Origin: Arenicola marina
Taxonomy: Eukaryota; Annelida; Polychaeta; Arenicolidae
Reading direction: 5' to 3'
Length of the DNA stretch: 64,000 bases
Assembly (NCBI GenBank): GCA_964019135.1
Contig: OZ025248.1
Location: forward strand, 46,307,670-46,371,669
Shown: positions 558-36,520 of the stretch, in pieces
Layout: each line of letters begins with the position of its first letter
How positions within the stretch are numbered: the first letter of the stretch is position 1
Position numbers and translations under genes: made by a program
Notes under the pieces: generated by a model
Told to the model about the DNA's origin: nothing
Database searches by the model: none
The model's input: the letters and a program-made list of their open reading frames with translations, nothing else

Positions 558-698
558 CCTGTGGGCGTCCTCGTCAGGGGGTGGGGGGGTCTTGAGGACC
601 TGTTTGACGGTCTGCATCAGAGTGTCTGTGGGCAGTACCTTCATGGCGCTGACCAGGTCCACCAACAACAGCTGGTCCTCACAGGCTTGGGAAATCAC
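558..698 (-). CDS. DOP1: DOP1 coding exon 13 (last in window)
   Basis: Encodes residues 2147-2193 (47 codons), with DQLLLVDLVSAMKVLPTD and MQTVKQVLKTPP, matching the DOP1 segment that follows the IVW block. The acceptor is CCCGGCAG before GTGATT; the donor is CACAGG before GTACGT in phase 0. The frame continues directly from exon 12, so no exon appears to be missing from the 12-kb intron 12. The acceptor and first 30 or so bases are copied in a 91-bp array to the right. Remaining C-terminal exons lie outside the window. Confidence 0.88.
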
Positions 699-1978
699 CT
701 GCCGGGCGGTGGGTACAGAGTGAGGGGTACAGAGTGAGGGGTCAGGGAGAGGGGTACAACAGCTGGTCCTCACAGGCTTGGGAAATCACCTGCCGGGCGG
801 TGGGTACAGAGTGAGGGGTACAGAGTGAGGGGTCAGGGAGAGGGGTACAACAGCTGGTCCTCACAGGCTTGGGAAATCACCTGCCGGGCGGTGGGTACAG
901 AGTGAGGGGTACAGATTGAGGGGTCAGGGAGAGGGGTACAACAGCTGGTCCTCACAGGCTTGGGACATCACCTGCCGGGCGGTGGGTACAGAGTGAGGGG
1001 TACAGATTGAGGGGTTCAGGGAGAGGGGTACAACAGCTGGTCCTCACAGGCTTGGGACATACCTTCCGGGCGGTGGGTACAGAGTGAGGGGTACAGAGTG
1101 AGGGGTTCAGGGAGAGGGGTACAACAGCTGGTCCTCACAGGCTTGGGGAATCACCTGCCGGGACAGTCTCACAGCGGTCAGCGGTCAGAAACCACAGGGC
1201 GGTGGGTACAGAGTGAGGGGTACAGAGTGGGGGGTACAGAGTGAGGGGTACAGAGTGAGGGATACAGAGTGAGGGGTACAGAGTGAGGGGTACAGAGTGA
1301 GGGGTACAGAGTGAGGGGTTCAGGGAGAGGGGTACAACAGCTGGTCCTCACAGGCTTGGGACATACCTTCCGGGCGGTGGGTACAGAGTGAGGGGTACAG
1401 AGTGAGGGGTTCAGGGAGAGGGGTACAACAGCTGGTCCTCACAGGCTTGGGGAATCACCTGCCGGGACAGTCTCACAGCGGTCAGCGGTCAGAAACCACA
1501 GGGCGGTGGGTACAGAGTGAGGGGTACAGAGTGGGGGGTACAGAGTGAGGGGTACAGAGTGAGGGATACAGAGTGAGGGGTACAGAGTGAGGGGTACAGA
1601 GTGAGGGATACAGAATGATGGGTGCAGGGTGAGGGGTACAGAGTGAGGGGTACAGAGCGAGGGGTACAGAGTGAGTGGTACAGAGCGCGGGGCACAGAGT
1701 GAGGGGCACAGTGTCAGGGGCACAGAGTTATGGGTACAGTGTCAGGGGCACAGAGTGAGGGGTACAGAGTGAGGGGTACAGAATGATGGGTGCAGGGTAA
1801 GGAATACAGGTTGAGTGTAGGGAGAGGGGCAGAGGGGGAGGGGTAGAAAGCGAGGGTACAGGGCGATGGGTAGAGAGGGAGGGGTAGAAACCGAGGGTAC
1901 AGAGAGAGGGGCAGAGAGGGGGGGGGGGGGTAGAAAGCGAGGGTACAAGGCGAGGACCACATGGTGAGGGGCACAGAT
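665..1978. repeat. 91-bp array at exon 13 acceptor plus 15-bp GTACAGAGTGAGGG array
   Basis: Starting in exon 13, a unit of 91-92 bases recurs at 668, 759, 850, 941, 1,033, 1,124, about 1,335 and 1,427. On the minus strand each unit holds the acceptor GGCAG and about 30 bases of exon 13 (GTGATTTCCCAAGCCTGTG), followed by short GTACAGAGTGAGGG-like blocks on the plus strand. The short block expands by itself from about 1,200 to 1,700 and degenerates to 1,978. Short open frames across it are by-products. Confidence 0.92.
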
Positions 1979-4029
1979 TGAAAGGCTGATTTAGTGTGAG
2001 ATTGTTATATCAGATTCTCTCAGTATTCTGGGGTTGATAAAAAAGACGACATGAGAGCTTGGCCCAGTGGCTAAGCACATCAATATTAGAGCTGTATTGA
2101 GGAATAATGAAATGAAATTACTGTGAAACGTTCCCAGAGATACTTCTAAGAAAACAGCATCAGCATTAGCGTTCTTCAATGAAGAGGACACAAACATAAC
2201 TTCTGAAATCCCGTTAGGATTCAAACGAAATTAAACCAAACCAAGATACATAACACAATAAACACAACATAAATTATATGAAAATATAGTCCTAAACAGT
2301 TTAACTCTACTTAATAAAAAATATATATAAAAAAAAAACATATCGACATCAACATCAAATCTACATCAACAATGTATAGATTGAGCTGTTTACAAACTCG
2401 CGCCCTTATGTTGATGATGGGTTTGGTTAAGGCGGTGGTCCACGTGGTGGGGTCACGTCGGAGGAGCGCGTGACAGATTTAAATGATTACAAGGCGAACA
2501 CGCAGGCGCAAGCTACATGTACAAGCGCGGTTTCCGGAGCAGCTGTTACGGAGTGGGCGATAATGAATGCGCTAACTAGAGAAGCGGCGGCGTGGTTATT
2601 ATTACACCCCATAGCATATATATCTATCTGTCAAAAAATTATCAATATCTACTAAATATATGAATCTACATTTACTGGCAAAGGATGCACTGATAAATTG
2701 CTGTTTCATGCTACCTGTGTACACATATGGATCAATCGGGGTAAAGAAATGGGAGTCAGGGTCCCGGTTGCGCTGTCAACGGTGTTCCCGCGATGTCTGA
2801 GGATGCGACATCGAATTCGGGCGGACAGACACACTGCTATGACCCATAAGTCATTTCATTTGTTAAGGTCGACAGCCTTGGAAGAGGTAAGGCGTCCAGC
2901 CACTTGTATATGGTTTGGGAATCCCCATGGATCAAATGTAATACACGAAAATATCCATATAACATAACAATAAAGGTATATTTTATGGGGCACGCTGTGT
3001 AATTATTTGCTGAACTATTAATCAAACACATGTATCCGACAGTAAAGCAAGGATAAAGCTCTGTATTTCAGGAAGGCTTGGCTGTACCGTCATGCCGTAT
3101 ATACGACTGATCACAGCCAGGAGCGCGTGAAGCTGTCTACAATGACGTCCATATAGCCTGTCTACAGACGCCATTTTAAACACGATTTAAAAAAATTACA
3201 ATGGGGTTGAAATCATGTGTGCGACAGTACGGTAAGCCACATGGTGAGTCACAGCGATACGTGCTGGCACTATTATTACAGAGCAGTGATCGATTCGTAT
3301 CAGACGCCAACGCCAAGTGGTTAAATGATAATGCTACATGTTTTGTTTGTTATCATTGATTGAGGTGAGCCGCATCTAGCATCAGTGGTGAGCAAGTCAC
3401 TGCATCCCCTCGTGGAGCCCTTGACAACGACTCAAGCGTGTGCTGATTGGTCAAGAGGTTAGGCGGCGTATTCACTGTACAATAACGGGACGCGCGATGT
3501 GACGTCATTATCACGTGACACAACGACATCGCCACATAGTGCGATAATCTCGCGATTGACATCCCGTGTTCATGGCCACGTGCTACGGTGTCATCACGCC
3601 CCACGCGACTTGAAGCGAGTGCAGAGGTGACGTAACGTCATTGTCACGTGATACTGGCGTCCTGATCTCACCAAATGCAGTCTGGTGGGCGGCATTTTGG
3701 TTCCCGCCTTCCTATCGGGATTGAATCCAAAGGTGATCGAGTCTTCCTTGCTGTTCAGACGCCGCAAGCAATTGCTAAATGCCATGATGGAGAGCTGCTC
3801 TAGCTGCGAGGGAGGGAGGGGTGGATGGCCGATTAGTCTTCACACTGGTTAGTTAGCATTATGTATCCATCTGCAGGCGCACGCGCAGTAGGGCTTCTGG
3901 TCGAGGCCATGCCAGTTAAACAGGGTTAGTACATAACTAAAGTTCAAATGTTGAAACACGCGGAAATGTTTCACACAATGTTGTTCGGTTTCATCAACCA
4001 ATTGATGGCGATGAAATAATTTCGTGTCC
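1979..4029. other. DOP1 intron 12, unique sequence
   Basis: Intronic sequence with no recognisable exon, RNA gene or array. A short AT-rich stretch lies at about 2,260-2,350. Open frames here are short and resemble no family I know. Confidence 0.6.
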
Positions 4030-4160
4030 TAGGCCGCTTTGTGCACACAAGAGCTAAACTAGGAACTCCCGGGAAAATGAAGGATGAATGGATGAAACAT
4101 GGATTCGAACCGAGGGTCTATTGACTAGTCTGGGGCGCTAACCACAACACCAGGGAGGTT
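4030..4160 (-). mobile_element. tRNA-derived SINE, family A, copy 1
   Basis: On the minus strand the sequence has a box A-like CTGGTGTTGTGGTTAGCGC and a box B-like GGTTCGAATCC about 40 bases apart, the tRNA-like head of a SINE. The 3' part matches the tails of the copies at 20,738 and 33,375 (AAGGATGAATGGATGAAAC on the plus strand). It is not a tRNA gene, since it lacks a cloverleaf with paired acceptor ends. Confidence 0.75.
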
Positions 4161-4690: not shown

Positions 4691-4694
4691 AGCC

Positions 4695-7600
4695 CGGGGA
4701 CGTCAGTGGCAGGGAACGTCAGTGGCAGGGAACGTCAGTGGCAGGGAACGTCAGTGGCAGAGGCTGTCAGTGGCAGGGGACGTCAGTGGCAGAGGATGTC
4801 AGTGGCAGAGGATGTCAGTGGCAGGGGATGTCAGTGGCAGGGGATGTCAGTGGCAGAGGATGTCAGTGGCAGGGAACGTCAGTGGCAGAGGCTGTCAGTG
4901 GCAGGGGACGTCAGTGGCAGGGAACGTCAGTGGCAGGGGATGTCAGCGGCAGAGGCTGTCAGTGGCAGGGGACGTCAGTGGCAGGGGACGTCAGTGGCAG
5001 GGAACGTCAGTGGCAGAGGCTGTCAGTGGCAGGGGACGTCAGTGGCAGGGGACGTAAGTGGCAGAGGACGTCAGTGGCAGAGGCTGTCAGTGGCAGGGGA
5101 CGTCAGTGGCAGAGACTGTCAGTGGCAGGGGACGTCAGTGGCAGAGGATGTCAGCGGCAGGGGATGTCAGTGGCAGGAGATGTCAGTGGCAGGAGATGTC
5201 AGTGGCAGGGAACGTCAGTGGCAGGGGACGTCAGTGGCAGAGGATGTCAGTGGCAGGAGATGTCAGTGGCAGGGAACGTCAGTGGCAGGGGACGTCAGTG
5301 GCAGGGGATGTCAGCGGCAGAGGCTGTCAGTGGCAGGGGACGTCAGTGGCAGAGGATGTCAGTGGCAGGAGATGTCAGTGGCAGGGAACGTCAGTGGCAG
5401 GGGACGTCAGTGGCAGGGGATGTCAGCGGCAGAGGCTGTCAGTGGCAGGGGACGTCAGTGGCAGAGGATGTCAGTGGCAGGAGATGTCAGTGGCAGGGAA
5501 CGTCAGTGGCAGGGGACGTCAGTGGCAGGGGATGTCAGCGGCAGAGGCTGTCAGTGGCAGGGAACGTCAGTGGCAGGGGACGTCAGTGGCAGGGGACGTC
5601 AGTGGCAGGGAACGTCAGTGGCAGAGGCTGTCAGTGGCAGGGGACGTCAGTGGCAGGGGACGTAAGTGGCAGAGGACGTCAGTGGCAGGGGACGTAAGTG
5701 GCAGAGGCTGTCAGTGGCAGGGAACGTCAGTGGCAGGGAACGTCAGTGGCAGGGGACGTCAGTGGCAGAGGATGTCAGTGGCAGAGGATGTCAGCGGCAG
5801 GAGATGTCAGTGGCAGGGAACGTCAGCGGCAGGGAACGTCAGTGGCAGGGGATGTCAGCGGCAGAGGCTGTCAGTGGCAGGGGACGTCAGTGGCAGGGGA
5901 CGTCAGTGGCAGGGAACGTCAGTGGCAGAGGCTGTCAGTGGCAGGGGACGTCAGTGGCAGAGGCTGTCAGTGGCAGGGGACGTCAGTGGCAGGGGACGTC
6001 AGTGGCAGGGGACGTAAGTAGCAGAGGACGTCAGTGGCAGAGGCTGTCAGTGGCAGGGGACGTCAGTGGCAGAGGCTGTCAGTGGCAGGGGACGTCAGTG
6101 GCAGGGGACGTCAGTGGCAGGGGATGTCAGCGGCAGAGGCTGTCAGTGGCAGGGGACGTCAGTGGCAGGGGACGTCAGTGGCAGGGAACGTCAGTGGCAG
6201 AGGCTGTCAGTGGCAGGGGACGTCAGTGGCAGGGAACGTCAGTGGCAGGGAACGTCAGTGGCAGAGGATGTCAGTGGCAGGGAACGTCAGTGGCAGGGGA
6301 TGTCAGTGGCAGGAGATGTCAGTGGCAGAGGATGTCAGCGGCAGGGGATGTCAGTGGCAGGAGATGTCAGTGGCAGAGGATGTCAGCGGCAGGAGATATC
6401 AGTGGCAGAGGATGTCAGTGGCAGGGGATGTCAGTGGCAGAGGACGTCAGTGGCAGGGGATGTCAGTGGCAGGGAACGTCAGAGGCAGGGGACGTCAGTG
6501 GCAGGGGACGTCAGTGGCAGGGAACGTCAGTGGCAGGGGATGTCAGCGGCAGAGGATGTCAGCGGCAGGAGATGTCAGTGGCAGAGGATGTCAGCGGCAG
6601 GAGATGTCAGTGGCAGAGGATGTCAGTGGCAGAGGATGTCAGTGGCAGAGGATGTCAGTGGCAGGGGACGTCAGCGGCAGGAGATGTCAGTGGCAGGGAA
6701 CGTCAGTGGCAGGGGATGTCAGTGGCAGGGGATGTCAGTGGCAGGGGACGTCAGTGGCAGGGAACGTCAGTGGCAGGGGATGTCAGTGGCAGGGGATGTC
6801 AGTGGCAGGGGACGTCAGTGGCAGGGAACGTCAGTGGCAGGGGATGTCAGCGGCAGAGGATGTCAGCGGCAGGAGATGTCAGTGGCAGAGGATGTCAGCG
6901 GCAGGGACCGTCAGCGGCAGGAGATGTCAGTGGCAGGGAACGTCAGTGGCAGGGGATGTCAGTGGCAGGGGATGTCAGCGGCAGAGGATGTCAGTGGCAG
7001 GGGATGTCAGCGGCAGAGGATGTCAGCGGCAGGAGATGTCAGTGGCAGAGGATGTCAGTGGCAGGGGATGTCAGTGGCAGGGGACGTCAGTGGCAGAGGA
7101 TGTCAGTGGCAGAGGACGTCAGCGGCAGGGGATGTCAGCGGCAGAGGATGTCAGTGGCAGGGGATGTCAGCGGCAGAGGATGTCAGCGGCAGGAGATGTC
7201 AGTGGCAGAGGATGTCAGTGGCAGGGGATGTCAGTGGCAGGGGACGTCAGCGGCAGGAGATGTCAGTGGCAGGGGATGTCAGCGGCAGGGGATGTCAGTG
7301 GCAGGGGACGTCAGTGGCAGAGGATGTCAGTGGCAGGGAACGTCAGCGGCAGGAGATGTCAGTGGCAGGAGATGTCAGTGGTAGGGGATGTCAGTGGCAG
7401 GGAACGTCAGTGGCAGGAGATGTCAGTGGCAGAGGACGTCAGTGGCAGAGGATGTCAGTGGCAGGGAACGTCAGCGGCAGGAGATGTCAGTGGCAGGAGA
7501 TGTCAGTGGTAGGGGATGTCAGTGGCAGGGAACGTCAGTGGCAGGAGATGTCAGCGGCAGGAGATGTCAGTGGCAGGGGATGTCAGTGGCAGGGAACGTC

Positions 7601-9280
7601 AGCGGCAGGGGATGTCAGTGGTAGGGAACGTCAGCGGCAGGGGATGTCAGTGGCAGGGAACGTCAGTGGCAGGGGATGTCAGTGGCAGGAGATGTCAGTG
7701 GCAGGAGATGTCAGTGGCAGGAGATGTCAGTGGCAGGGGATGTCAGTGGCAGGGAACGTCAGCGGCAGGGGATGTCAGTGGCAGGAGATGTCAGTGGCAG
7801 GGAATGTCAGTGGCAGAGGATGTCAGCGGCAGGAGATGTCAGTGGTAGGGAACGTCAGCGGCAGGAGATGTCAGTGGCAGGGAACGTCAGCGGCAGGAGA
7901 TGTCAGTGGCAGGGAACGTCAGTGGCAGGGGACGTCAGTGGCAGGAAACGTCAGCGGCAGGAGATGTCAGTGGCAGGGGATGTCAGCGGCAGGGGATGTC
8001 AGTGGCAGGGGACGTCAGTGGCAGGGGATGTCAGTGGCAGGGGACGTCAGTGGCAGGAGATGTCAGTGGCAGGGGACGTCAGTGGCAGGAGATGTCAGTG
8101 GCAGGGGACGTCAGTGGCAGGAGATGTCAGCGGCAGGAGATGTCAGCGGCAGGAGATGTCAGTGGCAGGGAACGTCAGTGGCAGGAGATGTCAGTGGCAG
8201 GGGATGTCAGCGGCAGGGGATGTCAGTGGCAGGGGACGTCAGTGGCAGGGGACGTCAGTGGCAGGGGATGTCAGTGGCAGGGGACGTCAGTGGCAGGAGA
8301 TGTCAGTGGCAGGGGACGTCAGTGGCAGGAGATGTCAGTGGCAGGGGACGTCAGTGGCAGGAGATGTCAGCGGCAGGAGATGTCAGTGGGAGAGGATGTC
8401 AGCGGCAGGAGATGTCAGTGGCAGGGGATGTCAGTGGCAGAGGATGTCAGTGGCAGGGAACGTCAGCGGCAGGGGATGTCAGTGGCAGGGGACGTCAGTG
8501 GCAGAGGATGTCAGTGGCAGGGAACGTCAGCGGCAGGAGATGTCAGTGGCAGGGGATGTCAGCGGCAGGGGATGTCAGCGGCAGGGGATGTCAGTGGCAG
8601 GGGACGTCAGTGGCAGAGGATGTCAGTGGCAGGGAACGTCAGCGGCAGGAGATGTCAGTGGCAGGAGATGTCAGTGGTAGGGGATGTCAGTGGCAGGGAA
8701 CGTCAGTGGCAGGGGACGTCAGTGGCAGAGGATGTCAGTGGCAGAGGATGTCAGCGGCAGGGACCGTCAGTGGCAGGGAACGTCAGTGGCAGGGGACGTC
8801 AGTGGCAGAGGACGTCAGTGGCAGAGGATGTCAGCGGCAGGGACCGTCAGTGGCAGGGAACGTCAGTGGCAGGGGACGTCAGTGGCAGGGGACGTCAGTG
8901 GCAGGGGACGTCAGTGGCAGGGGACGTCAGTGGCAGGGGACGTCAGTGGCAGAGGATGTCAGTGGCAGAGGACGTCAGCGGCAGGGGATGTCAGTGGCAG
9001 GGAACGTCAGCGGCAGGAGATGTCAGTGGCAGGGGATGTCAGTGGCAGGAGATGTCAGTGGCAGGGGATGTCAGTGGCAGAGGACGTCAGCGGCAGGGGA
9101 TGTCAGTGGCAGGGGATGTCAGTGGCAGAGGACGTCAGCGGCAGGGAACGTAAGTGGCAGAGGACGTCAGTGGCAGGGGATGTCAGTGGCAGGGGATGTC
9201 AGTGGCAGGCGAAGTCAGTGACAGGGGATGTCAGTGGCAGAGGACGTCAGTGGCAGAGGACGTCAGTGGCAGGAGATGTG
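4695..9280. repeat. 4.6-kb array of a 16-bp unit in DOP1 intron 12
   Basis: About 285 copies of a 16-base unit, GTCAGTGGCAGGGGAC with variants (GGAA, GAGG, GAGA, and AGCGG for AGTGG). The variants recur in larger blocks, for example between 5,150 and 5,560, showing higher-order amplification. Because the unit has no stop codon and 16 is not a multiple of 3, all three plus-strand frames stay open for hundreds of codons; these are not genes. The outermost copies degenerate at 9,200-9,280. No exon boundary is visible at either end. Confidence 0.95.
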
Positions 9281-10320: not shown

Positions 10321-12768
10321 GGCTATTTGTTATGGGAAGCGGGCACGATGAAGAGAGATATGGGAGGGTGATGAGCGTGTGTACGAGATGGCTGGCACGT
10401 GGCACGTGGAGGAGGGGGATGTGTGTTTGACAAGGGGGCGGCACCCGAGGGAAGGAAGACATGTGTTTGACAGGGAGGACACGGGGAGAAAGATGTGGGT
10501 TTGGCAGAGAGAGTATGGGGGGGGGGTCTTTGACAGGAGGACGGCACACATGGGGAGGGAGCTGTATGTTTGACAGGGGGAGGGTGATGTTGGGTTGACA
10601 GGGGGGGAGGCGGCCTCCGGGAGAAAGAACTGTGTGTTTGACAGGGGGGAGGGGAGGCACACGCACCCGCTTCGCGTTGGACACCCCCCTTTGTTAGGGG
10701 AGGGGGGAGGTACACAAGGGTAGGGTGGTGTCGCTTTGACAAGGCGGGTGGGGGCGCCCCAACCCGCTTGGTGTTGGAAACCCCCATTGCTAGGAGAGGG
10801 GTCACACGTACCCGTTTAGCGTTGGACAGACCCCGCTGCTAGGAGAGGGGGAGGGGGAGGGGGCGGGGTCACACGTACCCGTTTGGCGTTGGACAGACCC
10901 CGCTGCTGGGAGAGGGGGAGGGGAGGGGGCGGGGTCACACGTACCCGCTTGGCGTTGGACAGACCCCGCTGCTGGGAGAGGGGGAGGGGGAGGGGTCACA
11001 GGTACCCGTTTGGCGTTGAACAGACCCCGCTGCTAGGAGAGGGGGAGGGGGAGGGGGCGGGGTCACACGTACCCGCTTGGCGTTGGACAGACCCCGCTGC
11101 TAGGAGAGGGGGAGGGGGAGGGGGCGGGGTCACACGTACCCGTTTGGCATTGGACAGACACCGCTGCTAGGAGACAGGGAGGGGACGGGGGGGGGGTCAC
11201 ACGTACCCGTTTGGCGTTGGACAGACCCCGCTGCTAGGAGAGGGGGAGGGGGAGGGGGCGGGGTCACACGTACCCGCTTGGCATTGGACAGACCCCGCTG
11301 TTGCTAGGAGACGGGGAGGGGACGGGGGCGGGGTCAGACGTACCCGGTTGGCGTTGGACAGACCCCGCTGCTTGGAGAGGGGGAGGCGGGGGGCGGGGTC
11401 ACGTACCCGTTTGGCGTTGGACAGACCCCGCTGCTAGGAGAGGGGGAGGGGGAGCGGGCGGGGTCACACGTACCCGTTTGGCGTTGGACAGACCCCGCTG
11501 CTAGGAGAGGGGGAGGGGGAGGGGGCGGGGTCACATGTACCCGTTTGGCGTTGGACAGACCCCGCTGCTAGGAGAGGGGGAGGGGGAGCGGGCGGGGTCA
11601 CACGTACCCGTTTGGCGTTGGACAGACCCCGCTGCTAGGAGAGGGGGAGGGGGAGGGGGCGGGGTCAGACGTACCCGCTTGGCGTTGGACAGACCCCGCT
11701 GCTAGGAGAGGGGGAGGGGGAGGGGGCGGGGTCAGACGTACCCGTTTGGCGTTGGACAGCCCCCGCTGCTTGGAGAGGGGGAGGTGGGGGGCGGGGTCAC
11801 GTACCCGCTTGGCATTGGACAGACCCCGCTGCTAGGAGAGAGGGAGGGGGAGGGGGCGGGGTCACACGTACCCGTTTGGCGTTGGACAGACCCCGCTGCT
11901 AGGAGAGGGGGAGGGGGAGGGGGCGGGGTCACACGTACCCATTTGGCGTTGGACAGACCCCGCTGCTAAGAGAGGGGGAGGGGGAGGGGGCGGGGTCACA
12001 CGTACCCGCTTGGCGTTGGACAGACCCCGCTGCTAGGAGAGGGGGAGGGGGAGGGGGCGGGGTCACACGTACCCGTTTGGCGTTGGACAGACCCCGCTGC
12101 TAGGAGAGGGGGAGGGGGAGGGGGCGGGGTCACACGTACCCGTTTGGCGTTGGACAGACCCCGCTGCTGTGAGAGGGGGAGGGGAGGGGGCGGGGTCAGA
12201 CGTACCCGCTAGGCGTTGGACAGACCCCGCTGCTAGGAGAGGGGGAGGGGGAGGGGACGGGGTCACACGTACCCGTTTGGCGTTGGACAGACCCCGCTGC
12301 TAGGAGAGGGGGAGGGGGAGGGGGCGGGGTCACACGTACCCGCTTGGCGTTGGGCAGACCCCGCTGCTAGGAGAGGGAGAGGGGGAGGGGGGGGGGGGGC
12401 TCACACGTACCCGCTTGGCATTGGACAGACCCCGCTGCTAGGAGAGGGTGAGGGGGAGGGGGCGGGGTCACGTACCCGCTTGGCGTTGGACAGACCCCGC
12501 TGCTAGGAGAGGGGGAGGGGGAGGGGGAGGGGTCACACGTACCCGCTTGGCGTTGGACAGACCCCGCTGCTAGGAGAGGGGGAGGGGGAGGGGGCGGGGT
12601 CACACGTACCCGCTTGGCGTTGGACAGACCCCGCTGCTAGGAGAGGGTGAGGGGGAGGGGCGGGGTCACGTACCCGCTTGGCGTTGGACAGACCCCGCTG
12701 TTGCTAGGAGACAGGGAGGGGACGGGGGGGGGGGGGTCACACGTACCCGCTTGGCGTTGGACAGCCCC
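10321..12768. repeat. 66-67-bp array at exon 12 donor
   Basis: About 30 copies run from the end of exon 12 leftward to about 10,800, with degenerate copies on to about 10,640 and related G-rich sequence beyond. Each unit on the minus strand contains the exon end CTGTCCAACGCCAAGCGG and the donor GTACGTGTG, then a C-rich tract. On the plus strand each unit carries three to four G-runs of at least four bases (GGGGGAGGGGGAGGGGG), the template strand for DOP1. The first unit is the real exon 12 donor. Confidence 0.94.
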
Positions 12769-12872
12769 CGCTGCCGTCGGTCGTGCCATACAATGGCCAT
12801 TGCAGCGATCAGGTTACAGGCATGATGCTTGGAGATCGGACTCAGGAACTCCAGGATGTGCTTTCGTAGGTT
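12747..12872 (-). CDS. DOP1: DOP1 coding exon 12
   Basis: Encodes residues 2105-2146 (42 codons, phase 0 at both ends), reading HILEFLSPISKHHACNLIA and AMAIVWHDRRQRGLSNAKR, which matches the DOP1 C-terminal helical region. The acceptor is TGATTTAG before AACCTA; the donor is AAGCGG before GTACGT. The last 30 or so bases plus the donor seed an array of about 30 copies of 66-67 bp to the left. Confidence 0.9.
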
Positions 12873-13080: not shown

Positions 13081-13299
13081 GTATTTATTTGCGTCGGTGG
13101 AGTGGGCTATATCTCAGCCGCGCCAGTTTAATTTCTGTTTCTCCAAGGAAGTACCCTCGAAAGGGCTTCGCTTTGCAAGGCATTGCACCAAGTTAAATCA
13201 TAATATCAATCTTTTTCGGTTAAAGTTTCAATGCAGTTAAGAAGAAAATATCGCCATAAATGTCTATGTTGTGGGCGAAAGAATTGTCCTACACTGCTC

Positions 13300-14134
13300 A
13301 TCCCTGCCTACCTTGGGCAGACCCATGGGCCAACACGGCTCCTCCCCGCCTACCTTGGGCAGACCCATGGGCCAACACGGCTCCTCCCCGCCTACCTTGG
13401 GCAGACCCATGGTCCAACACGGGTCCTCCCCGCCTACCTTGGGCAGACCCATGGTCCAACACGGCTCATCCCCGCCTACCTTGGGCAGACCCATGGGCCA
13501 ACACGGCTCCTCCCCGCCTACCTTGGGCAGACCCATGGGCCAACACGGCTCCTCCCCGCCTACCTTGGGCAGACCCATGGTCCAACACGGCTCCTCCCCG
13601 CCTACCTTGGGCAGACCCATGGTCCAACACGGCTCCTCCCCGCCTACCTTGGGCAGACCCATGGGCCAACACGGCTCCTCCCCGCCTACCTTGGGCAGAC
13701 CCATGGTCCAACACGGCTCCTCCCCGCCTACCTTGGGCAGACCCATGGTCCAACACGGCTCCTCCCCGCCTACCTTGGGCAGACCCATGGTCCAACACGG
13801 CTCCTCCCCGCCTACCTTGGGCAGACCCATGGGCCAACACGGCTCCTCCCCGCCTACCTTGGGCAGACCCATGGGCCAACACGGCTCCTCCCCGCCTACC
13901 TTGGGCAGACCCATGGTCCAACACGGCTTCTCCCCGCTTACCTTGGGCAGACCCATGGTCCAACACGGCTCCTCCCCGCCTACCTTGGGCAGACCCATGG
14001 TCCAACACGGCTCCTCCCCGCCTACCTTGGGCAGACCCATGGTCCAACACGGCTCCTCCCCGCCTACCTTGGGCTGACCCATGGTCCAACACGGCTCCTC
14101 CCCGCCTACCTTGGGCAGACCCATGGTCCAACAC
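13300..14134. repeat. 42-bp in-frame array at exon 11 donor
   Basis: About 20 copies of a 42-base unit running left from the end of exon 11. On the minus strand each unit reads EEPCWTMGLPKVGG in the DOP1 frame and contains the donor CCCAAG before GTAGGC. The copies differ mainly by GGTCCA versus GGGCCA. Several frames stay open on both strands; only the DOP1 frame has a biological reason to be considered. Confidence 0.95.
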
Positions 14135-14292
14135 GGCTCCTCACGGCCGGTGTCTCTGGATCGTTTTTCCGAGGCGTTGGCGGCCTTCCAGACGTCCAGC
14201 AGGCTGGCCACGATCCGGGGCAGGATATTGAGGAGGTGCCGCCGGGCGTCCAGACGCGGATCCTCGAACACCTCCTTGGCAGGACTCGGCTC
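14110..14292 (-). CDS. DOP1: DOP1 coding exon 11
   Basis: Encodes residues 2044-2104, containing HLLNILPRIVASLLDVWKA and ending EPCWTMGLPK. The acceptor is TGTCTTCAG before GAGCCG. The first donor is CCCAAG before GTAGGC in phase 0. The frame remains open through the adjoining 42-bp array, so each of about 20 array copies offers the same donor in the same frame and use of a distal one would add multiples of 14 residues. The nearest donor is used here because it gives the shortest, family-like protein. Confidence 0.88.
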
Positions 14293-22385: not shown

Positions 22386-22656
22386 TGCAGGTGTTGGGGC
22401 GTCAGTGACGGCTGCATCACCACCGACACAGTGCCGTCCAGCGGGTGTGCGTGGCCGGCCTCCCCCTGAGGATCCCCCTGGTCCTGGTCCTGCCCTACTT
22501 TGCTCTGTGTCTCGGCCAGAACGGACTGGGTCAGGCCCACCAGGTCCTGCAGGGTGGCAATGGCGGTGCTCTGCACGGCGAAGTTATCCACGAAGCAGGC
22601 GCACGTGAGGAGGTAGCGCAGCCACTCCGGGAGGTCGTGGGTCCGGACCTCGTCAT
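22355..22656 (-). CDS. DOP1: DOP1 coding exon 6
   Basis: Encodes the end of codon 973 and residues 974-1073. It reads HDLPEWLRYLLTCACF, VQSTAIATLQDLVGLTQS and later GTVSVVMQPSLTPQHL, matching the mid-protein helical block of DOP1. The first two bases complete an aspartate with the G from exon 5. The donor is TATAAG before GTAAAC in phase 0. Both ends abut minisatellites: a 73-bp array of about 70 copies upstream and a 43-bp array of about 34 copies downstream. The acceptor (TTACGGCAG) has no obvious pyrimidine tract because array sequence occupies that position. Confidence 0.9.
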
Positions 22657-22661
22657 CTGCC

Positions 22662-25600
22662 GTAACCACAACCATATAATGTACATACACTGGGACCACC
22701 TCATCCATCTATCCTTCCCGTCCATAGCCCACACGGACCACAACCATATACATGTACATACACTGGGGCCACCTCATCCATCTATCCTTCCCGTCCATAG
22801 CCCACACGGACCACAACCATATACATGTACATACACTGTGACCACCTCCTCCATCTATCCTTCCCGTCCATAGGCCACACGGACCACAACCATATACATG
22901 TACATACACTGGGGCCACCTCATCCATCTATCCTTCCCGTCCATAGGCCACACGGACCACAACCATATACATGTACATACACTGGGGCCACCTCATCCAT
23001 CTATCCTTCCCGTCCATAGGCCACACGGACCACAACCATATACATGTACATACACTGTGACCACCTCATCCATCTATCCTTCCCGTCCATAGCCCACACG
23101 GACCACAACCATATACATGTACATACACTGGGGCCACCTCATCCATCTATCCTTCCCGTCCATAGCCCACACGGACCACAACCATATACATGTACATACA
23201 CTGGGGCCACTTCATCCATCTATCCTTCCCGTCCATAGGCCACACGGACCACAACCATATACATGTACATACACTGGGACCATCCCATCCATCTATCCTT
23301 CCCGTCCATAGGCCACATGGACCACAACCATATACATGTACATACACTGGGGCCACCTCATCCATCTATCCTTCCCGTCCATAGCCCACACGGACCACAA
23401 CCATATACATGTACATACACTGTGACCACCTCCTCCATCTATCCTTCCCGTCCATAGGCCACACGGACCACAACCATATACATGTACATACACTGGGACC
23501 ACCTCATCCATCTATCCTTCCCGTCCATAGGCCACACGGACCACAACCATATACATGTACATACACTGTGACCACCTCCTCCATCTATCCTTCCCGTCCA
23601 TAGGCCACACGGACCACAACCATATACATGTACATACACTGGGGCCACCTCATCCATCTATCCTTCCCGTCCATAGCCCACACGGACCACAACCATATAC
23701 ATGTACATACACTGTGACCACCTCATCCATATATCCTTCCCGTCCATAGGCCACACGGACCACAACCATATAATGTACATACACTGTGACCACCTCCTCC
23801 ATCTATCCTTCCCGTCCATTGGCTACACGGACCACAACCATATAATGTACATACACTGGGACCACTTCATCCATCTATCCTTCCCGTCCATAGCCCACAC
23901 GGACCACAACCATATACATGTACATACACTGGGACCACCTCATCCATCTATCCTTCCCGTCCATAGGCCACACGGACCACAACCATATACATGTACATAC
24001 ACTGGGGCCACCTCATCCATCTATCCTTCCCGTCCATAGGCCACACGGACCACAACCATATACATGTACATACACTGGGACCACTTCATCCATCTATCCT
24101 TCCCGTCCATAGGCCACACGGACCACAACCATATACATGTATATACACTGGGGCCACTTCATCCATCTATCCTTCCCGTCCATAGGCCACACGGACCACA
24201 ACCATATACATGTACATACACTGGGACCATCCCATCCATCTATCCTTTCCGTCCATAGCCCACACGGACCACAACCATATACATGTACATACACTGGGGC
24301 CACTTCATCCATCTATCCTTCCTGTCCATAGACCACACGGACCACAACCATATACATGTACATACACTGGGACCATCCCATCCATCTATCCTTCCCGTCC
24401 ATAGCCCACACGGACCACAACCATATACATGTACATACACTGGGGCCACTTCATCCATCTATCCTTCCCGTCCATAGGCCACACGGACCACAACCATATA
24501 CATGTACATACACTGTGACCACCTCCTCCATCTATCCTTCCCGTCCATAGGCCACACGGACCACAACCATATACATGTACATACACTGTGACCACCTCCT
24601 CCATCTATCCTTCCCGTCCATAGGCCACACGGACCACAACCATATACATGTACATACACTGGGGCCACCTCATCCATCTATCCTTCCCGTCCATAGGCCA
24701 CACGGACCACAACCATATACATGTACATACACTGGGACCACCCCATCCATCTATCCTTCCCGTCCATAGGCCACACGGATCACAACCATATACATGTACA
24801 TACACTGGGGCCACCTCATCCATCTATCCTTCCCGTCCATAGCCCACACGGACCACAACCATATACATGTACATACACTGGGGCCACCTCATCCATCTAT
24901 CCTTCCCGTCCATAGCCCACACGGACCACAACCATATACTTGTACATACACTGGGGCCACTTCATCCATCTATCCTTCCCGTCCATAGGCCACACGGACC
25001 ACAACCATATACATGTACATACACTGGGACCATCCCATCCATCTATCCTTCCCGTCCATAGGCCACATGGACCACAACCATATACATGTACATACACTGG
25101 GGCCACTTCATCCATCTATCCTTTCCGTCCATAGGCCACACGGACCACAACCATATACATGTACATACACTGGGACCACCCCATCCATCTATTCTTCCCG
25201 TCCATAGGCCACACGGACCACAACCATATAATGTACATACACTGGGACCACCTCATCCATCTATCCTTCCCGTCCATAGACCACACGGACCACAACCATA
25301 TACATGTACATACACTGGGGCCACTTCATCCATCTATCCTTCCCGTCCATAGGCCACACGGACCACAACCACATACATGTACATACACTGGGACCACCTC
25401 ATCCATCTATCCTTCCCGTCCATAGGCTACACGGACCACAACCATATACATGTACATACACTGGGGCCACCTCATCCATCTATCCTTCCCGTCCATAGGC
25501 CACACGGACCACAACCATATACATGTACATACACTGGGGCCACCTCATCCATCTATCCTTCCCGTCCATAGGCCACACGGACCACAACCATATAATGTAC

Positions 25601-27832
25601 ATACACTGGGGCCACCTCATCCATCTATCCTTCCCGTCCATAGCCCACACGGACCACAACCATATACATGTACATACACTGGGGCCACCTCATCCATCTA
25701 TCCTTCCCGTCCATAGGCCACACGGACCACAACCATATAATGTACATACACTGGGGCCACCTCATCCATCTATCCTTCCCGTCCATAGGCCACACGGACC
25801 ACAACCATATACATGTACATACACTGTGACCACCTCCTCCATCTAACCTTCCCGTCCATAGCCCACACGGACCACAACCATATAATGTACATACACTGGG
25901 GCCACCTCATCCATCTATCCTTCCCGTCCATAGCCCACACGGACCACAACCATATACATGCACATACACTGTGACCACCTCCTCCATCTAACCTTCCCGT
26001 CCATAGCCCACACGGACCACAACCATATAATGTACATACACTGGGGCCACGTCATCCATCTATCCTTCCCGTCCATAGCCCACACGGACCACAACCATAT
26101 AATGTACATACACTGGGGCCACCTTATCCATCTATCCTTCCCGTCCATAGGCCACACGGACCACAACCATATAATGTACATACACTGGGGCCACCTCATC
26201 CATCTATCCTTCCCGTCCATAGGCCACATGGACCACAACCATATACATGTACATACACTGGGGCCACTTCATCCATCTATCCTTCCCGTCCATAGGCCAC
26301 ACGGACCACAACCATATACATGTACATACACTGGGGCCACCTCATCCATCTATCCTTCCCGTCCATAGGCCACACGAACCACAACCATATACATGTACAT
26401 ACACTGGGGCCACCTCATCCATCTATCCGTCCCGTCCATAGGCCACATGGACCACAACCATATAATGTACATACACTGGGGCCACCTTATCCATCTATCC
26501 TTCCCGTCCATAGGCCACACGGACCACAACCATATACATGTACATACACTGGGGCCACCTCATCCATCTATCCTTCCCGTCCATAGGCCACATGGACCAC
26601 AACCATATAATGTACATACACTGGGGCCACCTTATCCATCTATCCTTCCCGTCCATAGGCCACACGGACCACAACCATATAATGTACATACACTGGGGCC
26701 ACCTCATCCATCTATCCTTCCCGTCCATAGGCCACACGAACCACAACCATATACATGTACATACACTGGGGCCACCTCATCCATCTATCCTTCCCGTCCA
26801 TAGGCCACATGGACCACAACCATATAATGTACATACACTGGGGCCACCTCATCCATCTATCCTTCCCGTCCATAGGCCACATGGACCACAACCATATAAT
26901 GTACATACACTGGGGCCACCTTATCCATCTATCCTTCCCGTCCATAGGCCACACGGACCACAACCATATACATGTACATACACTGGGGCCACCTCATCCA
27001 TCTATCCTTCCCGTCCATAGGCCACACGAACCACAACCATATACATGTACATACACTGGGGCCACCTCATCCATCTATCCTTCCCGTCCATAGCCCACAC
27101 GGACCACAACCATATACATGTACATACACTGGGGCCACCTCATCCATCTATCCTTCCCGTCCATAGGCCACACGGACCACAACCATATACATGTACATAC
27201 ACTGGGGCCACTTCATCCATCTATCCTTCCCGTCCATAGGCCACACGGACCACAACCATATACATGTACATACACTGGGGCCACCTCATCCATCTATCCT
27301 TCCCGTCCATAGGCCACAGGGACCACAACCATATACATGTACATACACTGGGGCCACCTCATCCATCTATCCTTCCCGTCCATAGGCCACACGGACCACA
27401 ACCATATACATGTACATACACTGGGGCCACCTCATCCATCTATCCTTCCCGTCCATAGGCCACACGGACCACAACCATATACATGTACATACACTGGGGC
27501 CACCTCATCCATCTATCCTTCCCGTCCATAGGCCACACGGACCACAACCATATACATGTACATACACTGGGGCCACTTCATCCATCTATCCTTCCCGTCC
27601 ATAGGCCACACGGACCACAACCATATACATGTACATACACTGGGGCCACTTCATCCATCTATCCTTCCCGTCCATAGGCCACACGGACCACAACCATATA
27701 CATGTACATACACTGGGGCCACCTCATCCATGTATCCTTCCCGTCCATAGGCCACACGGACCACAACCATATAATGTACATACACTGGGACCACCTTATC
27801 CATCTATCACTTCTGTAGGCCACACGTTCAAG
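22662..27832. repeat. 73-bp array at exon 6 acceptor
   Basis: About 70 copies of a 73-base unit (some 72) fill most of DOP1 intron 5. On the minus strand a unit reads TATGGACGGGAAGGATAG, then ATGAGGTGGCCCCAGTG, then TATGTACATGTATATGG and TTGTGGTCCGTGTGG. The last copy runs into the exon 6 acceptor with GGTTGTGGTTACGGCAG. Overlapping open frames of 64-160 codons repeat at 73-base steps and are not genes. Confidence 0.95.
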
Positions 27833-28396: not shown

Positions 28397-29690
28397 CTGG
28401 GTTGAAGGATCCAAGGATGGTCTTGTGGTAGTTGGTGCAATACATCGGGAAGGAGGACAAATCAACGAGCAGCTGACACGCGCTGCCGAATGCTCGCAAC
28501 AGGTCACGTGACACCTCCTCCACCTTGTAGCACAGCACATCTGAGAAGCGTCGTCCGTTAGCGCCGGTATTCTGTAATCCGGCGCGTGACGTGGGGCATG
28601 GGTCCTCCTCGGGCGGTGGTCCACCCGGCCTCCAGCCGTCCAGTCCCCGCCAAGCCCCCATGGACGTCCCTTGAGGGGGCAGCACCAGCTGGCGGAGCAA
28701 CATATTGGGCAGCTCGGGGTCGCGGATGATCTTGCTGGCGATAAGCGAGACGAAGAGCTTGTGGAAGCACTGGACGCAGGTCTGCATGAGAGTGAGGGAC
28801 GCTGAGCGCTCGGCCCAGGGCTGGCGGCGGAGCACCTTGCGGGGAGACATGCGCACCTGTGGGGCCTCCTCGGGGAAGTTGTCTCCGTACTGCACGAAGT
28901 CGTTGAACGATTCCGTGTCCTCAGACTTGCTGACGTCATCTGTATCCAGAGACATTGGAGGACTTCTGACGCCATCCGAGTCCGGAGACAATGGCGGACT
29001 CGTGATGTCATCAGTATCCCGAGATATTGGAGGACTTCTGACGCCATCCGTGTCCGGAGACAATGGCGGACTCGTGACGTCAGTACCCGGAGACATGGGC
29101 GGCATTATGACCTGATCCCCCCCGTTTGGTGATCCATTCTGCTTGCTGTCGTCATCAGTACCTGTGTTACCAATATCGTCGTTATCTGGCGACACCCCAC
29201 CTTTCTTCACAGCTTCGCTGACGTGACCGTTGACCAACCTACAGCTTCCGTTCTCCATATCACTACTTAATGAGGCACTTTTTAATTGCTCCTTATCTAC
29301 GTATCCATTCGGGGTTTCCTGTTTGATGTCCTGGCGGCGAGCGTCAGGCGACCCTTGACCTTGCCTGACCTTGGCGGGAGAGCTCTCCGCACTCATAAAC
29401 ACGTCGCTCTCACTCAGGGGCCAATCTGTCACGTGATCGTCGTCAACCTCTGGCGACATCATTTTCGTGGGCATTTTGTACGGCGAGTTTTGGCGGCTAC
29501 CTTCCATGTCACTTCCGGCCATGCCGACGGGGTTGACCGACGGTAGGACGCGGCCCAGCAGCTTGGAGCACAGCTTGAGGCTGGCGTCCATCTCGGCGTC
29601 CGTCAGCTTGTCGCAGTGGACGGACAGCGACAGCGTCACCTGGCGGAGTAGCTCTGGGATGTGTTCAGTCTGGATCTCGATGTACGTTTC
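28397..29690 (-). CDS. DOP1: DOP1 coding exon 5
   Basis: Encodes residues 542-972 plus one base. It opens with ETYIEIQTEHIPELL, a well-conserved DOP1 segment that follows directly on exon 4. About 200 acidic, low-complexity residues follow, containing four to five 12-residue Ser/Pro/Asp repeats of the form SPPLSPDTDGVR (28,940-29,110). The end is helical again (LTLMQTCVQCFHKLFVSLI, VLCYKVEEVSRDLLRAFG, ACQLLVDLSSFP). The acceptor is TTGCAG before GAAACG; the donor is CCCAG before GTCAGT in phase 1. The middle is probably disordered and varies between species. Confidence 0.92.
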
Positions 29691-30093: not shown

Positions 30094-31026
30094 CAGAGAA
30101 ACTTTATCCAGCAGGAAGTCGACAAGGTTGCAGAGCTCAGCCAGTGACATCTCGCCGCCAGCGCCCCCTCGCGGCGACCCATGGTGAGAGTTACCGCAGT
30201 CTATACAGGACCTCTCGAAGGTACGGCCGATAAAGTCCCAGATAAAGTAGGGTTCGAAGGCCCCGAACAGGAGGTTGGCGGTCTTCACGATCTCCCCCAT
30301 CACCGACTTCTCCTCGTGCTTGGCCTTGGGTTCCTTCCGGCGCGTCAGGAGTCTACTCTGGAGGCTGGATATGGAGTTCTCCCGGGACAGCCCCAGATTG
30401 GAGGAGTCCTTGGCAGCGGGGTCTTCCGACTCCACCTCGGTCTGACCCGCAGCCATACACTCCCGGTACATACAGCGGAATACCTCCAGAAGAATATCCT
30501 CCAGGATAGCCGAGCCGATCTCAGGCTTATCCAGGAGGCTGATCAGGATTCGGAAAGGGCGGAGGTTAGCGGGACGCCCCTCACCCGATGAGTCCTCCTC
30601 AGAGGTCAAGGCCGTTTCCTGGATGCAGTTCTTCACCGCCAGGATGAGAAGCTCCTTGGAGTAAGTGTTAAAATAGTCCATCTCCACCTCGCTGCTCTGG
30701 GTACTGGCGCTATCCCGCCGCTGTTCTAAGCCACTCCCTCCACCTCCCACGCCGGCGACCCCTAGTGTACCACGTGACCTGGGAGGCTCCGCGGCGCTGT
30801 GGAGCGGAAGTCCATTGGAGTCGGCTCCCAGCAGCCACGCGTACAGACGGCGGTTAAGGGACATGTCGCGACGCAGGACGACCTTGACGACGGCTGTGAT
30901 GACCTTGACCATATCGGGACGCGTCAGCTGGCTGTTGTGCATCGGGAAGCCGCAGAGAAGCAGGTCGAGTGCACTGCGCTGCACCAACACGCTGGCGTCC
31001 TGCACCGACGTGCACATAGCCTCGAT
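30094..31026 (-). CDS. DOP1: DOP1 coding exon 4
   Basis: Encodes residues 231-541 (311 codons, phase 0 at both ends). Conserved DOP1 blocks include TSVQDASVLVQRSALDLLL, LRRDMSLNRRLYAWLLG, FRILISLLDKPEIGSAILED, VKTANLLFGAFEPYFIWDF and LVDFLLDKVSL. Between them is a variable Gly/Ser-rich insert at about residues 295-330. The acceptor is TGTTTCAG before ATCGAG; the donor is TCTCTG before GTTAGT. This completes the N-terminal helical domain, which in the family is implicated in membrane and MON2 association. Confidence 0.93.
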
Positions 31027-31556: not shown

Positions 31557-31746
31557 CATGAGGTCAATGTTGGTGCCCATGATGTGGAGCTGATCCTCTG
31601 TCGTCTGCTTCCGGTTGTAGTGGGCCAGGACGAAGTTAATGGCGGCCAGGCGCACGGAGGGGCTAGACAGCACACACTCCCACAGACACCCGTAAAAATA
31701 CACCGGGTCTGTCGACTCAACAAACTCCTCCAGCAACCGAGTCACC
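31557..31746 (-). CDS. DOP1: DOP1 coding exon 3
   Basis: Encodes residues 167-230, including FYGCLWECVLSSPSVRLAA, FVLAHYNRKQ and DQLHIMGTNIDLM, matching the second conserved block of the DOP1 N-terminal domain. The acceptor is CTCCACCAG and the first base G completes the split arginine codon. The exon ends ATG before a GTACGC donor in phase 0. Neither end is part of a tandem array, although a G-rich low-complexity stretch follows the acceptor on the intron side. Confidence 0.92.
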
Positions 31747-32139: not shown

Positions 32140-33040
32140 GCCTCGTGCACCGTCCTACCACACACCTCCAGCCCGGGGAGCCCTCCTCTCCCCTCCCTGC
32201 GCCGTCCCACCACCCACCTGTCGAAGTACTCGGACCCCTCCTCCAGCCCGGGCAGCCGCTCCCCCCCACTCCCCTGCCCCCGTCCTATCACCCACCTGTC
32301 GAAGTACTCGGACCCCTCCTCCAGCCCGGGCAGCCGCTCCCCCCCACTCCCCTGCCCCCGTCCTATCACCCACCTGTCGAAGTACTCGGACCCCTCCTCC
32401 AGCCCGGGCAGCCGCTCCCCCCCACTCCCCTGCCCCCGTCCTATCACCCACCTGTCGAAGTACTCGGACCCCTCCTCCAGCCCGGGCAGCCGCTCCCCCC
32501 CACTCCCCTGCCCCCGTCCTATCACCCACCGGTCGAAGTACTCGGACCCCTCCTCCAGCCCGGGCAGCCGCCCCCCCCCACTCCCCTGCCCCCGTCCTAT
32601 CACCCACCTGTCGAAGTACTCGGACCCCTCCTCCAGCCCGGGCAGCCCCCCCCCCACCCCACTCCCCTGCCCCCGTCCTATCACCCACCTGTCGAAGCAT
32701 TCGGACCCCTCCTCCAGCCCGGGCAGCCCCCACCCCCCACTCCCCTGCCCCCGTCCTATCACCCACCTGTCGAAGTACTCGGACCCCTCCTCCATCCCGG
32801 GCAGCCCCCACCCCCCACTCCCCTGCCCCCGTCCTATCACCCACCTGTCGAAGTACTCGGACCCCTCCTCCAGCCCGGGCAGCCCCCCCCACCACTCCCC
32901 TGCCCCCGTCCTATCACCCACCTGTCGAAGTACTCGGACCCCTCCTCCAGCCCGGGCAGCCCCCACCCCCCACTCCCCTGCCCCCGTCCTACCACCCACC
33001 TGTCGAAGTACTCGGACCCCTCCTCCAGCCCGGGCAGCAG
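32140..33040. repeat. 78-bp in-frame array at exon 2 donor
   Basis: About 11 copies of a 78-base unit (starts at 32,219, 32,297, 32,375, 32,453 and so on, with small length shifts in the C-runs) run from inside exon 2 leftward. On the minus strand each encodes [13 protein letters not shown] and carries the donor GACAG before GTGGGT. 78 is a multiple of 3 and the DOP1 frame stays open through the whole array. One copy near 32,530 has CCG in place of CAG at the donor. Confidence 0.95.
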
Positions 33041-33352
33041 GCCGAGCAGTAGGCCCGTCATGGCCGGCTTGACGTGCTTGCCCAGGGGAACCACGTGGGT
33101 CTCGTACAGGGCCAGCAGGGTCGGTTTGACGTTCATGGCCGCCTGGCCCAGCAGCGGGAAGAGCCCGGCGCTGTAGGTGAACAGGTCGGCGGCCAAGCGG
33201 CCGGTGCCGATGCACTTGAAGATGATGTCATAGGTCTCGAGGGCGCGCAGGTGGACGCCGCTGGGCAGGGCCGGGTGGAGGCACTGCGCCAGGCGCTTGC
33301 CGATAGTCACCCGGCGGGGGATCACCGGGTACTTTACGTGACTGCTGAGGAT
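33000..33352 (-). CDS. DOP1: DOP1 coding exon 2
   Basis: Encodes residues 50-166 plus two bases of the next codon. It carries the most conserved N-terminal block of the family: [51 protein letters not shown] and [13 protein letters not shown]. The acceptor is GCCTGCAG before ATC in phase 0. The donor is GACAG before GTGGGT in phase 2, completed by the first base of exon 3 to an arginine. The last 40 or so bases with the donor are repeated about 11 times into the intron in a 78-bp array, and every copy keeps this reading frame open. Confidence 0.93.
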
Positions 33353-33374
33353 CTGCAGGCAAATAAACATTGGT

Positions 33375-33580: not shown

Positions 33581-33644
33581 CCCTGGAGATGAGGCCACAT
33601 ATAACTTATTGTAGGTACAAAGGAATAAAGAAAAGAATAGTTCG

Positions 33645-35562: not shown

Positions 35563-35990
35563 TGTAAGTATATTGCTTTAACCAAAATGTTGTCAGTATC
35601 TATTTTAGATGTCATTTTTAACCAAAAAAATTATCTTTCAGTGACCACAAAATCGGGCACTTTACTCTCCAAATCCTCTCTACGGCATGAGCGGCACACC
35701 CCCACCCTCTGGTCCCCGATTAAATCATCAGTTGGTGTAAATTCGGTGTTTACTTCAACTTCTTTGTCCGACTCGCCAGAAATTATCGGTGGTAGTAGTC
35801 GTCTAAACCTACTGGTCGCTTCATCGTCGGTGACGTCATCATCAGTGCACTGAGGCGGGTGCCCATGGCAAGTTGGGTGGTCGTGCAAAAGTACTTGAAA
35901 CTTCACTAATGTATGCTTTAAAAAAAGAAAAGAAATGTAAATGATATGTGCCCGGCATTTCCCTTTACAGAAATATAGAAATAGCCTGAC
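35563..35990. other. DOP1 intron 1, donor-proximal part
   Basis: Unique sequence ending at the exon 1 donor. Open frames on either strand here are short and show no recognisable family. Confidence 0.5.
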
Positions 35991-36144
35991 CTTGTTGAGT
36001 TTTCCCAGGGCTGAGATGAGGTCGGCCCATTCGTACGTCGACTCGAAGTTCTTCAGAGCCTTGTCCACTTGCGAGATGTAGGCTCGGTACTTGGAGTCAC
36101 CGAGCAACTCGCACTCCTCCAGGTTTAACATGCTCATGGTGTCC
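35991..36144 (-). CDS. DOP1: DOP1 coding exon 1 (start codon exon)
   Basis: Encodes residues 1-49 of the assembled protein, including [13 protein letters not shown] and [14 protein letters not shown], which match the conserved DOP1 N-terminus. The acceptor TTCTTACAG lies just upstream and is followed by GGACACC and an ATG at 36,137; a second in-frame ATG lies at 36,131. The first is chosen because it comes first and has A at -3. Seven bases of 5' UTR precede it, so an upstream non-coding exon must exist. The exon ends AACAAG before a GTCAGG donor in phase 0. Its acceptor side is the first unit of a 76-bp tandem array. Confidence 0.9.
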
Positions 36145-36520
36145 CTGTAAGAATAACACATTGAAGCTTCCGTACCATTCCATCTCACACTCCTCCAGGT
36201 TTATCATGCTCATGGTGTCCCTGTAAGAATAACACATTGAAGCTTCCGTACCATTCCATCTCACACTCCTCCAGGTTTATCATGCTCATGGTGTCCCTGT
36301 AAGAATAACACCTTGAAGCTTCCGTACCATTCCATCTCACACTCCTCCAGGTTATGCTCATGGTGTCCCTGTAAGAATAACACCTTGAAGCTTCCGTACC
36401 ATTCCATCTCACACTCCTCCAGGTTTATCATGCTCATGGTGTCCCTGTAAGAATAACACCTTGAAGCTTCCGTACCATTCCATCTCACACTCCTCCAGGT
36501 TTAACATGCTAAGTGTCCCT
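36126..36520. repeat. 76-bp array at exon 1 acceptor, with start codon
   Basis: Five units of about 76 bases run right from the start of exon 1. On the minus strand each carries TTCTTACAG, GGACACC, ATGAGCATG and AACCTGGAGGAGTG, copying the acceptor, the start codon and the first exon codons. One copy lacks three bases near 36,353, and the outermost (36,500-36,520) is degenerate. Confidence 0.93.

Follow-up and report, generated by a model that had tools for sequence, protein, structure and literature searches.

Splice-site-copying minisatellites at the exon ends of DOP1 and a modest excess of tandem arrays near exon ends in an annelid-like genome

We analyzed a window of 64,000 nucleotides (G000:C1:46307670-46371669) of an assembly of 867 Mb in 762 contigs. 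On its minus strand this window holds DOP1, a gene in which several exons end in a minisatellite that repeats the splice site together with adjoining exon and intron bases. Such arrays represent a known phenomenon, named mirages in amphioxus, which is found here in another phylum and whose excess has now been measured. Our account, to which we assign a probability of around 0.68, is that mirage-type minisatellites are tolerated via splicing at the outermost copy of the site, and are gained or kept around three times more often near exon ends.

Tandem arrays at the exon ends of DOP1

The exon ends of DOP1 were placed by hand, on the basis of open frames and GT/AG sites. Spliced accordingly, the 13 exons (36144-35991 through 698-558) form a single frame of 2193 amino acids without a stop codon. 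The Pfam domain Dopey_N was matched over profile positions 1-305 of 306, using the first 1233 amino acids of the product as the query, and TPR_DOP1_M and TPR_DOP1 were matched in single exons.

Using Tandem Repeats Finder (TRF), a minisatellite was found to adjoin 8 of the 26 exon ends, namely the acceptors of exons 1, 6 and 13 and the donors of exons 2, 6, 10, 11 and 12 (Table 1). In seven of these arrays the unit comprises exon bases, the splice site and intron bases; the exception is the array at the exon 6 acceptor, which stops short of the exon. At the remaining 18 ends there was no TRF array with a period of at least 20 bp within 60 bp, and the two-copy repeat of 19 bp at 19817-19854 is found 54 bp off the exon 8 donor. 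The array at the exon 13 acceptor includes 34 exon bases, and the AG is intact in all five other copies within 665-1162. In the array at the exon 6 donor, the copies that read AT for GT carry GTAAGA five bases upstream. None of the gene's nine large arrays is related to another, nor does any resemble the 134 units sampled elsewhere in the genome (0 pairs at an E value of 1e-5). On all these points, the number of ends involved, the composition of the units and their lack of relationship, the first-pass annotation of this DNA was borne out.

Eight of the nine large arrays lie near an exon end (P(>=8 of 9)=6.6e-6) and seven cross a junction (P(>=7 of 9)=2.4e-6), with array-free insertion points as the null in both cases. 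Considering the fact that DOP1 was chosen for its looks, the genome sample described below is a fairer test than these within-gene values. In several of the arrays divergence is highest in a copy at the edge and the inner copies are alike, a pattern also seen in ordinary tandem turnover; the copy with the lowest similarity is at the far edge in the arrays of exons 2, 10, 11 and 13.

An array of 99-bp units copies the donor of a further exon end that we read as part of DOP1 (LLHSIMHNVFPYLKNH; no family search was made), at most 4 kb left of the window. This end falls outside the count of 8 out of 26, which covers the exons in the window. Within the left flank (C1:46303670-46307669, a locus that is partly N) the 99-bp array covers positions 1-1659 and is followed by a 38-bp array at 1658-3268. 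Inside the coding exons three tandem repeats were detected by TRF, with periods of 36, 27 and 30 bp, all divisible by three. At 38837-39902 of the window there are two similar stretches that are separated by around 600 bp, have open frames on both strands and resemble a repeated element.

Table 1. Exons of DOP1 and the large tandem arrays in the gene, with positions within the window
Feature	Position	Strand	Remarks	Basis
Exon 1 of the model	35991..36144	-	start codon ATGAGCATG; array at acceptor end	spliced frame
Exon 2	33000..33352	-	Dopey_N	spliced frame
Exon 3	31557..31746	-	no array	spliced frame
Exon 4	30094..31026	-	no array; Dopey_N	spliced frame
Exon 5	28397..29690	-	ends without array; in-frame 36/72-bp coding repeat at 28924-29082	TRF, spliced frame
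Exon 6	22355..22656	-	flanked by arrays on both sides	spliced frame
Exon 7	20540..20692	-	no array	spliced frame
Exon 8	19908..20164	-	no array	spliced frame
Exon 9	15881..18157	-	ends without array; in-frame coding repeats of 27 bp (17146-17221) and 30 bp (17430-17507); TPR_DOP1	TRF, spliced frame
Exon 10	15301..15523	-	TPR_DOP1	spliced frame
Exon 11	14110..14292	-		spliced frame
Exon 12	12747..12872	-		spliced frame
Exon 13	558..698	-		spliced frame
76-bp array x5.5	36108..36521	-	copies exon 1 acceptor; 37 exon bases; AG intact in 5/5 other copies	TRF, copy alignment
78-bp array x11.2	32165..33038	-	copies exon 2 donor; 38 exon bases; GT in 11/11 aligned copies including the authentic one	TRF, copy alignment
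73-bp array x70.7	22665..27813	-	stops 8 bp before exon 6 acceptor; acceptor not copied	TRF
43-bp array x32	21012..22392	-	copies exon 6 donor; 37 exon bases; donor GT reads AT in 21/31 aligned copies	TRF, copy alignment
49-bp array x11.3	14760..15309	-	copies exon 10 donor; 8 exon bases; GT intact in 10/11 other copies	TRF, copy alignment
42-bp array x20.4	13286..14142	-	copies exon 11 donor; 32 exon bases; GT intact in 19/19 other copies; within stop-free frame	TRF, copy alignment
67-bp array x29.6	10798..12774	-	copies exon 12 donor; 27 exon bases; GT in 30/30 aligned copies including the authentic one	TRF, copy alignment
91-bp array	665..1911	-	copies exon 13 acceptor; TRF 665-1466, overlapped and continued to 1911 by 14-bp repeats	TRF
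32-bp array x143	4696..9279	.	sole large intron array of the gene away from a junction	TRF

Array edges around exon ends in the genome

A sample of exon ends that is independent of the arrays was taken from genome-wide exon matches to Myosin_head (77), Cpn60_TCP1 (49) and HECT (62), together 188 rows. The 156 matches flanked within their locus by 400 bp or more on either side were kept and 32 were dropped. Exon ends were located by a simple splice-site score near the Pfam matches, which provided a clear site for 132 donors and 141 acceptors; for a further 24 and 15, respectively, the score stayed below the threshold and they were dropped. Some myosin and HECT rows were skipped when regions were chosen, including rows that contain stop codons, rows from small contigs and clusters of alternative exons. 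The SNF2 rows did not enter the counts. In a myosin gene at G000 C4:367768-384767 the profile positions 89-154 and 590-640 are matched several times over, which is suggestive of alternative-exon clusters. On a small contig (G000 C204:10752-11582) a long match to the SNF2 domain contains several in-frame stops. Many of the exon matches (Myosin_head, Cpn60_TCP1/HECT and SNF2 rows) lie within open frames of several hundred to more than 1000 codons, which perhaps reflect adjoining stop-free arrays.

The first-pass annotation had proposed to compare array edges with exon ends beyond this gene, and on the 273 ends outside DOP1 that comparison revealed an excess. An array edge was present within 60 bp of 43 ends, and random non-coding points gave 14.3 (standard deviation 3.8, maximum 26 in 1000 draws). 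With array-free positions as the opportunity the expectation was 14.0, which corresponds to a 3.1-fold enrichment (p=3.5e-10), and for large arrays (at least 150 bp and at least 3.9 copies) 27 were observed against 6.0 expected (4.5-fold). Each of the families was enriched on its own (2.1x, 4.9x and 2.5x). The range of the effect is short: at 60-100 bp from the exon ends there is no overall excess (4 versus 4.1 expected). More explicitly, the four 30-bp bins that span the 60 bp on either side of the exon end, listed from the exon outward, contain 17.1, 9.8, 14.7 and 11.0 array edges per 10 kb, compared to 3.7 at 60-100 bp and 2.5-4.9 beyond. The excess is similar for arrays that cross the junction (22 versus 7.4) and for arrays that merely abut it (21 versus 6.6).

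One could object that arrays this dense must touch many exon ends anyway, and that DOP1 was picked as a striking case. Arrays indeed make up 57% of the intron sequence of DOP1, and across 81 exon records in 3-kb loci their mean share of the DNA is 20%; because they are so common about one third of the junction arrays, or around 14 of 273 ends, is expected by chance. As an explanation of the whole pattern chance is nevertheless very improbable, given that the observed number lies far above the highest placebo draw, that the background level is reached at 60-100 bp and that none of the three families lacks the enrichment. What remains of the earlier proposal that the junction itself attracts arrays is an attraction that is real but modest, around threefold.

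Around one in six of the sampled ends (46 of 273) carries or abuts an array with a period of at least 20 bp and at least 2.5 copies. Compared to this figure, the 8 out of 26 of DOP1 does not clearly stand out (Fisher p=0.105; one-sided binomial p=0.059), and when all arrays are counted (59 of 273 sampled ends) the comparison yields p=0.32. The array density of DOP1, which had been taken to be exceptional, is at most mildly high and not clearly so.

Several candidate causes of the excess were rejected. GC-rich surroundings do not account for it, as flank GC was 0.451 at background array edges versus 0.443 at random positions. Hidden exons behind the background arrays do not either, since 7 of 103 background edges look coding versus 5% by construction. 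Shared or mobile units were not found: the 134 sampled units contain no similar pair from different places. Finally, a strand skew as a signal of R-loops was absent, with a mean GC skew of 0.010 at donors and -0.009 at acceptors.

Tolerance and origin of junction arrays

Arrays that cross the junction prefer donors. In the sample they occur at 19 of 132 donors and 6 of 141 acceptors (p=0.005), and with DOP1 included at 24 of 145 and 8 of 154, respectively (p=0.002). The abutting arrays lack this bias (11 donors, 10 acceptors). The position of the splice site within the unit is uniformly distributed over 31 of the 32 crossing arrays (Kolmogorov-Smirnov p=0.29, on lengths compiled by hand; one array was not aligned). 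A preferred exon length within the unit, as suggested by eye, was rejected, since the ratio to unit length is uniform. Of 31 crossing arrays, 8 have a best TRF period that is a multiple of three, which is at chance level (p=0.45), so that the extra copies show no frame constraint. Junction arrays are also longer than background arrays (486 versus 221 bp, p=0.0002; 469 versus 244 bp in long loci, p=0.04; arrays are cut at locus ends).

We propose that short tandem duplications would arise and expand throughout non-coding DNA via ordinary unequal exchange or slippage. An array that covers an exon end could be tolerated when splicing continues at the outermost copy, i.e. the first donor or the last acceptor, so that the surplus copies of the site end up within the intron. 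The outermost site would retain the original exon context, and recognition of the first donor during transcription, or of the exon as a unit, may keep the message intact. At acceptors the first AG to be met would be that of an upstream copy, and crossing arrays may be less tolerated there, which matches the donor bias; such a bias would follow from obligatory use of the outermost site, and a tolerance filter is its probable cause. Arrays wholly within exons would persist only in frame. The 2193-amino-acid frame uses the outermost site at the seven copied ends as well as the exon 6 acceptor, and from the sequence it may fairly be inferred that growth is tolerated solely on the intron side. The threefold density at junctions needs more than this filter, and it is accounted for neither by composition or strand skew nor by shared units or hidden exons. 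Beyond the filter, the DNA within around 60 bp of exon ends, on both sides, gains or keeps arrays at around three times the rate of other non-coding DNA (4.5 times for large ones).

A number of observations weigh against this account. The decoy splice sites are mostly intact, with GT kept in 230 of 238 copies in 18 of the 19 sampled donor arrays (the remaining array was not aligned) and AG kept in 48 of 51 acceptor copies, and their harmlessness is left without an explanation. The donor bias in the sample becomes weaker under two stricter filters (p=0.024 and 0.022). Percent match is alike in junction and background arrays (92 versus 93, p=0.96), which gives no indication that arrays survive longer at junctions. 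In three of the eight DOP1 arrays (the donors of exons 6, 10 and 12), and not in those of exons 11 and 13, the authentic copy ranks clearly below the inner copies. For the chaperonin family alone the 60-100 bp bin is high as well (2 versus 0.6, p=0.11). Finally, the sample spans only three families and 52 gene clusters; the pooled p-values assume independent ends and are for that reason somewhat optimistic.

What makes the arrays accumulate near exon ends can be narrowed down to some extent. Causes that act exactly at the junction, like the nicks at splice sites that had been suggested in the first-pass annotation, find no support, considering the uniform register and the similar enrichment of abutting and crossing arrays. 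A possible explanation, to which we nevertheless give clearly less than even odds, is a raised rate of tandem duplication in the neighbourhood of exon ends, with RNA-DNA hybrids, paused transcription or breaks at nucleosome edges as possible sources. The excess on both sides up to around 60 bp, for crossing and abutting arrays alike, and the greater length of the junction arrays argue for such a link. However, neither donors nor acceptors display strand G-richness, the array edges in introns are not predicted by local GC, and the uniform register implies that there is no fixed breakpoint.

Somewhat less likely is an origin at the edges of homology. In a highly heterozygous outbreeder, recombining haplotypes would match mainly in their exons, and the exchange could fail into tandem duplication where homology ends. 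This predicts a two-sided excess without a fixed register, as was observed. Amphioxus is a highly heterozygous animal, and the mirages in the literature available to us are from amphioxus. Duplication linked to junctions and failure at homology edges both fit the two-sided range of 60 bp and the free register, and the data do not separate them. In its more general form the latter idea is slightly more doubtful still: exon ends may be general hot spots of tandem duplication in some animals, with recombination between diverged haplotypes confined to exons and failing at their edges, and the mirages of lancelets and of this annelid-like animal would be independent outcomes of high heterozygosity.

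We consider it unlikely that arrays form evenly and that those anchored in an exon accumulate because they resist clean deletion. The length of the junction arrays is in line with this, but their divergence equals that of background arrays, and the excess is gone by 60 bp rather than fading across hundreds of bases. Far less probable is that the arrays mark introns born via tandem duplication of an exonic AGGT segment. Mirages have been proposed to create new introns in amphioxus globins (in the available text of PMC3087553), but none of seven DOP1 arrays resembles the opposite intron end (blastn-short, E value 0.01, 100 bp either side; the exon 1 acceptor array left out) and within intron 12 the two arrays are mutually unrelated. 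An assembly artefact is the least credible option, for although kilobase-long arrays are hard to assemble, the copies differ individually and the frame is intact over all 13 exons.

Mirages in other animals and the host genome

According to the sections available to us of the papers concerned, the name mirages was given to tandemly copied exon-intron boundaries in amphioxus Adh3, and such copies also occur in the globins BflGb6 and BflGb9, PGBD5 and troponin C (PMC3087553, PMC3902484), in agreement with what the first-pass annotation had stated for Adh. Their mechanism was called unclear there (PMC3087553). Both the amphioxus mirages and the present arrays consist of minisatellite-like boundary copies, at 5' as well as 3' sides, and in both AG and GT are kept in many but not all copies (PMC3087553, PMC3902484). 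The boundaries of the amphioxus clusters are described in these texts as escaping homogenisation, to be compared with the mixed picture in DOP1, where the authentic copy is clearly lower in three of the eight arrays. In contrast to the amphioxus cases, the arrays described here are from another phylum and were counted in a sample of exon ends, and their excess over random points was measured.

In the human gene IFI6 (6-16) a minisatellite yields multiple splice donors (PMC4526556, citing Turri 1995). A tandem repeat thus supplies extra donor sites in both cases, although IFI6, as far as described in that text, is a single gene, with two downstream units serving as donors, whereas the present arrays are known from genomic DNA. 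Intron gain through tandem duplication of AG/GT segments is discussed in the amphioxus globin text (PMC3087553) and likewise involves a duplicated stretch that covers splice signals; the present arrays differ in that they are found at one intron end, with no sign of a new intron. The introns of earthworm metallothionein hold minisatellites, described in the available text without boundary copies (PMC12783039). Our literature search, restricted to open-licence papers available in part, turned up neither a count of mirages across a genome nor a case in annelids, an absence that is not proof.

The host was taken for a lancelet in the first-pass annotation, but is not one, and is annelid-like by its mitochondrial gene order. 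In lancelets atp6 follows atp8. The mitochondrial contig (C762) carries nad3-nad2-cox1-cox2-atp8-cox3 on one strand, without atp6 between atp8 and cox3; except for cox1 these genes were recognised by eye from their translations. The annelid Travisia is tabulated with the same order of protein genes, which in the available text is described by its authors as common in Errantia and Sedentaria (PMC8924214), and from which some other annelids deviate according to part of another paper (PMC7682095). A search for the GFP family gave no match in the genome, which is weak evidence as the same search matched in no control genome.

In the available literature mirages were described gene by gene and in amphioxus. 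The data presented here add a second animal group in which around one in six exon ends is involved and a threefold excess within around 60 bp comes with a uniform register and a preference for donors, and thereby make mirages testable in any chromosome-level annotated genome. If exon ends were indeed hot spots of failed recombination between haplotypes, they would form a continuing source of new splice-site copies. And if copied splice sites are so common and yet ignored, each such genome would represent a large natural test of how the spliceosome chooses the outermost site.

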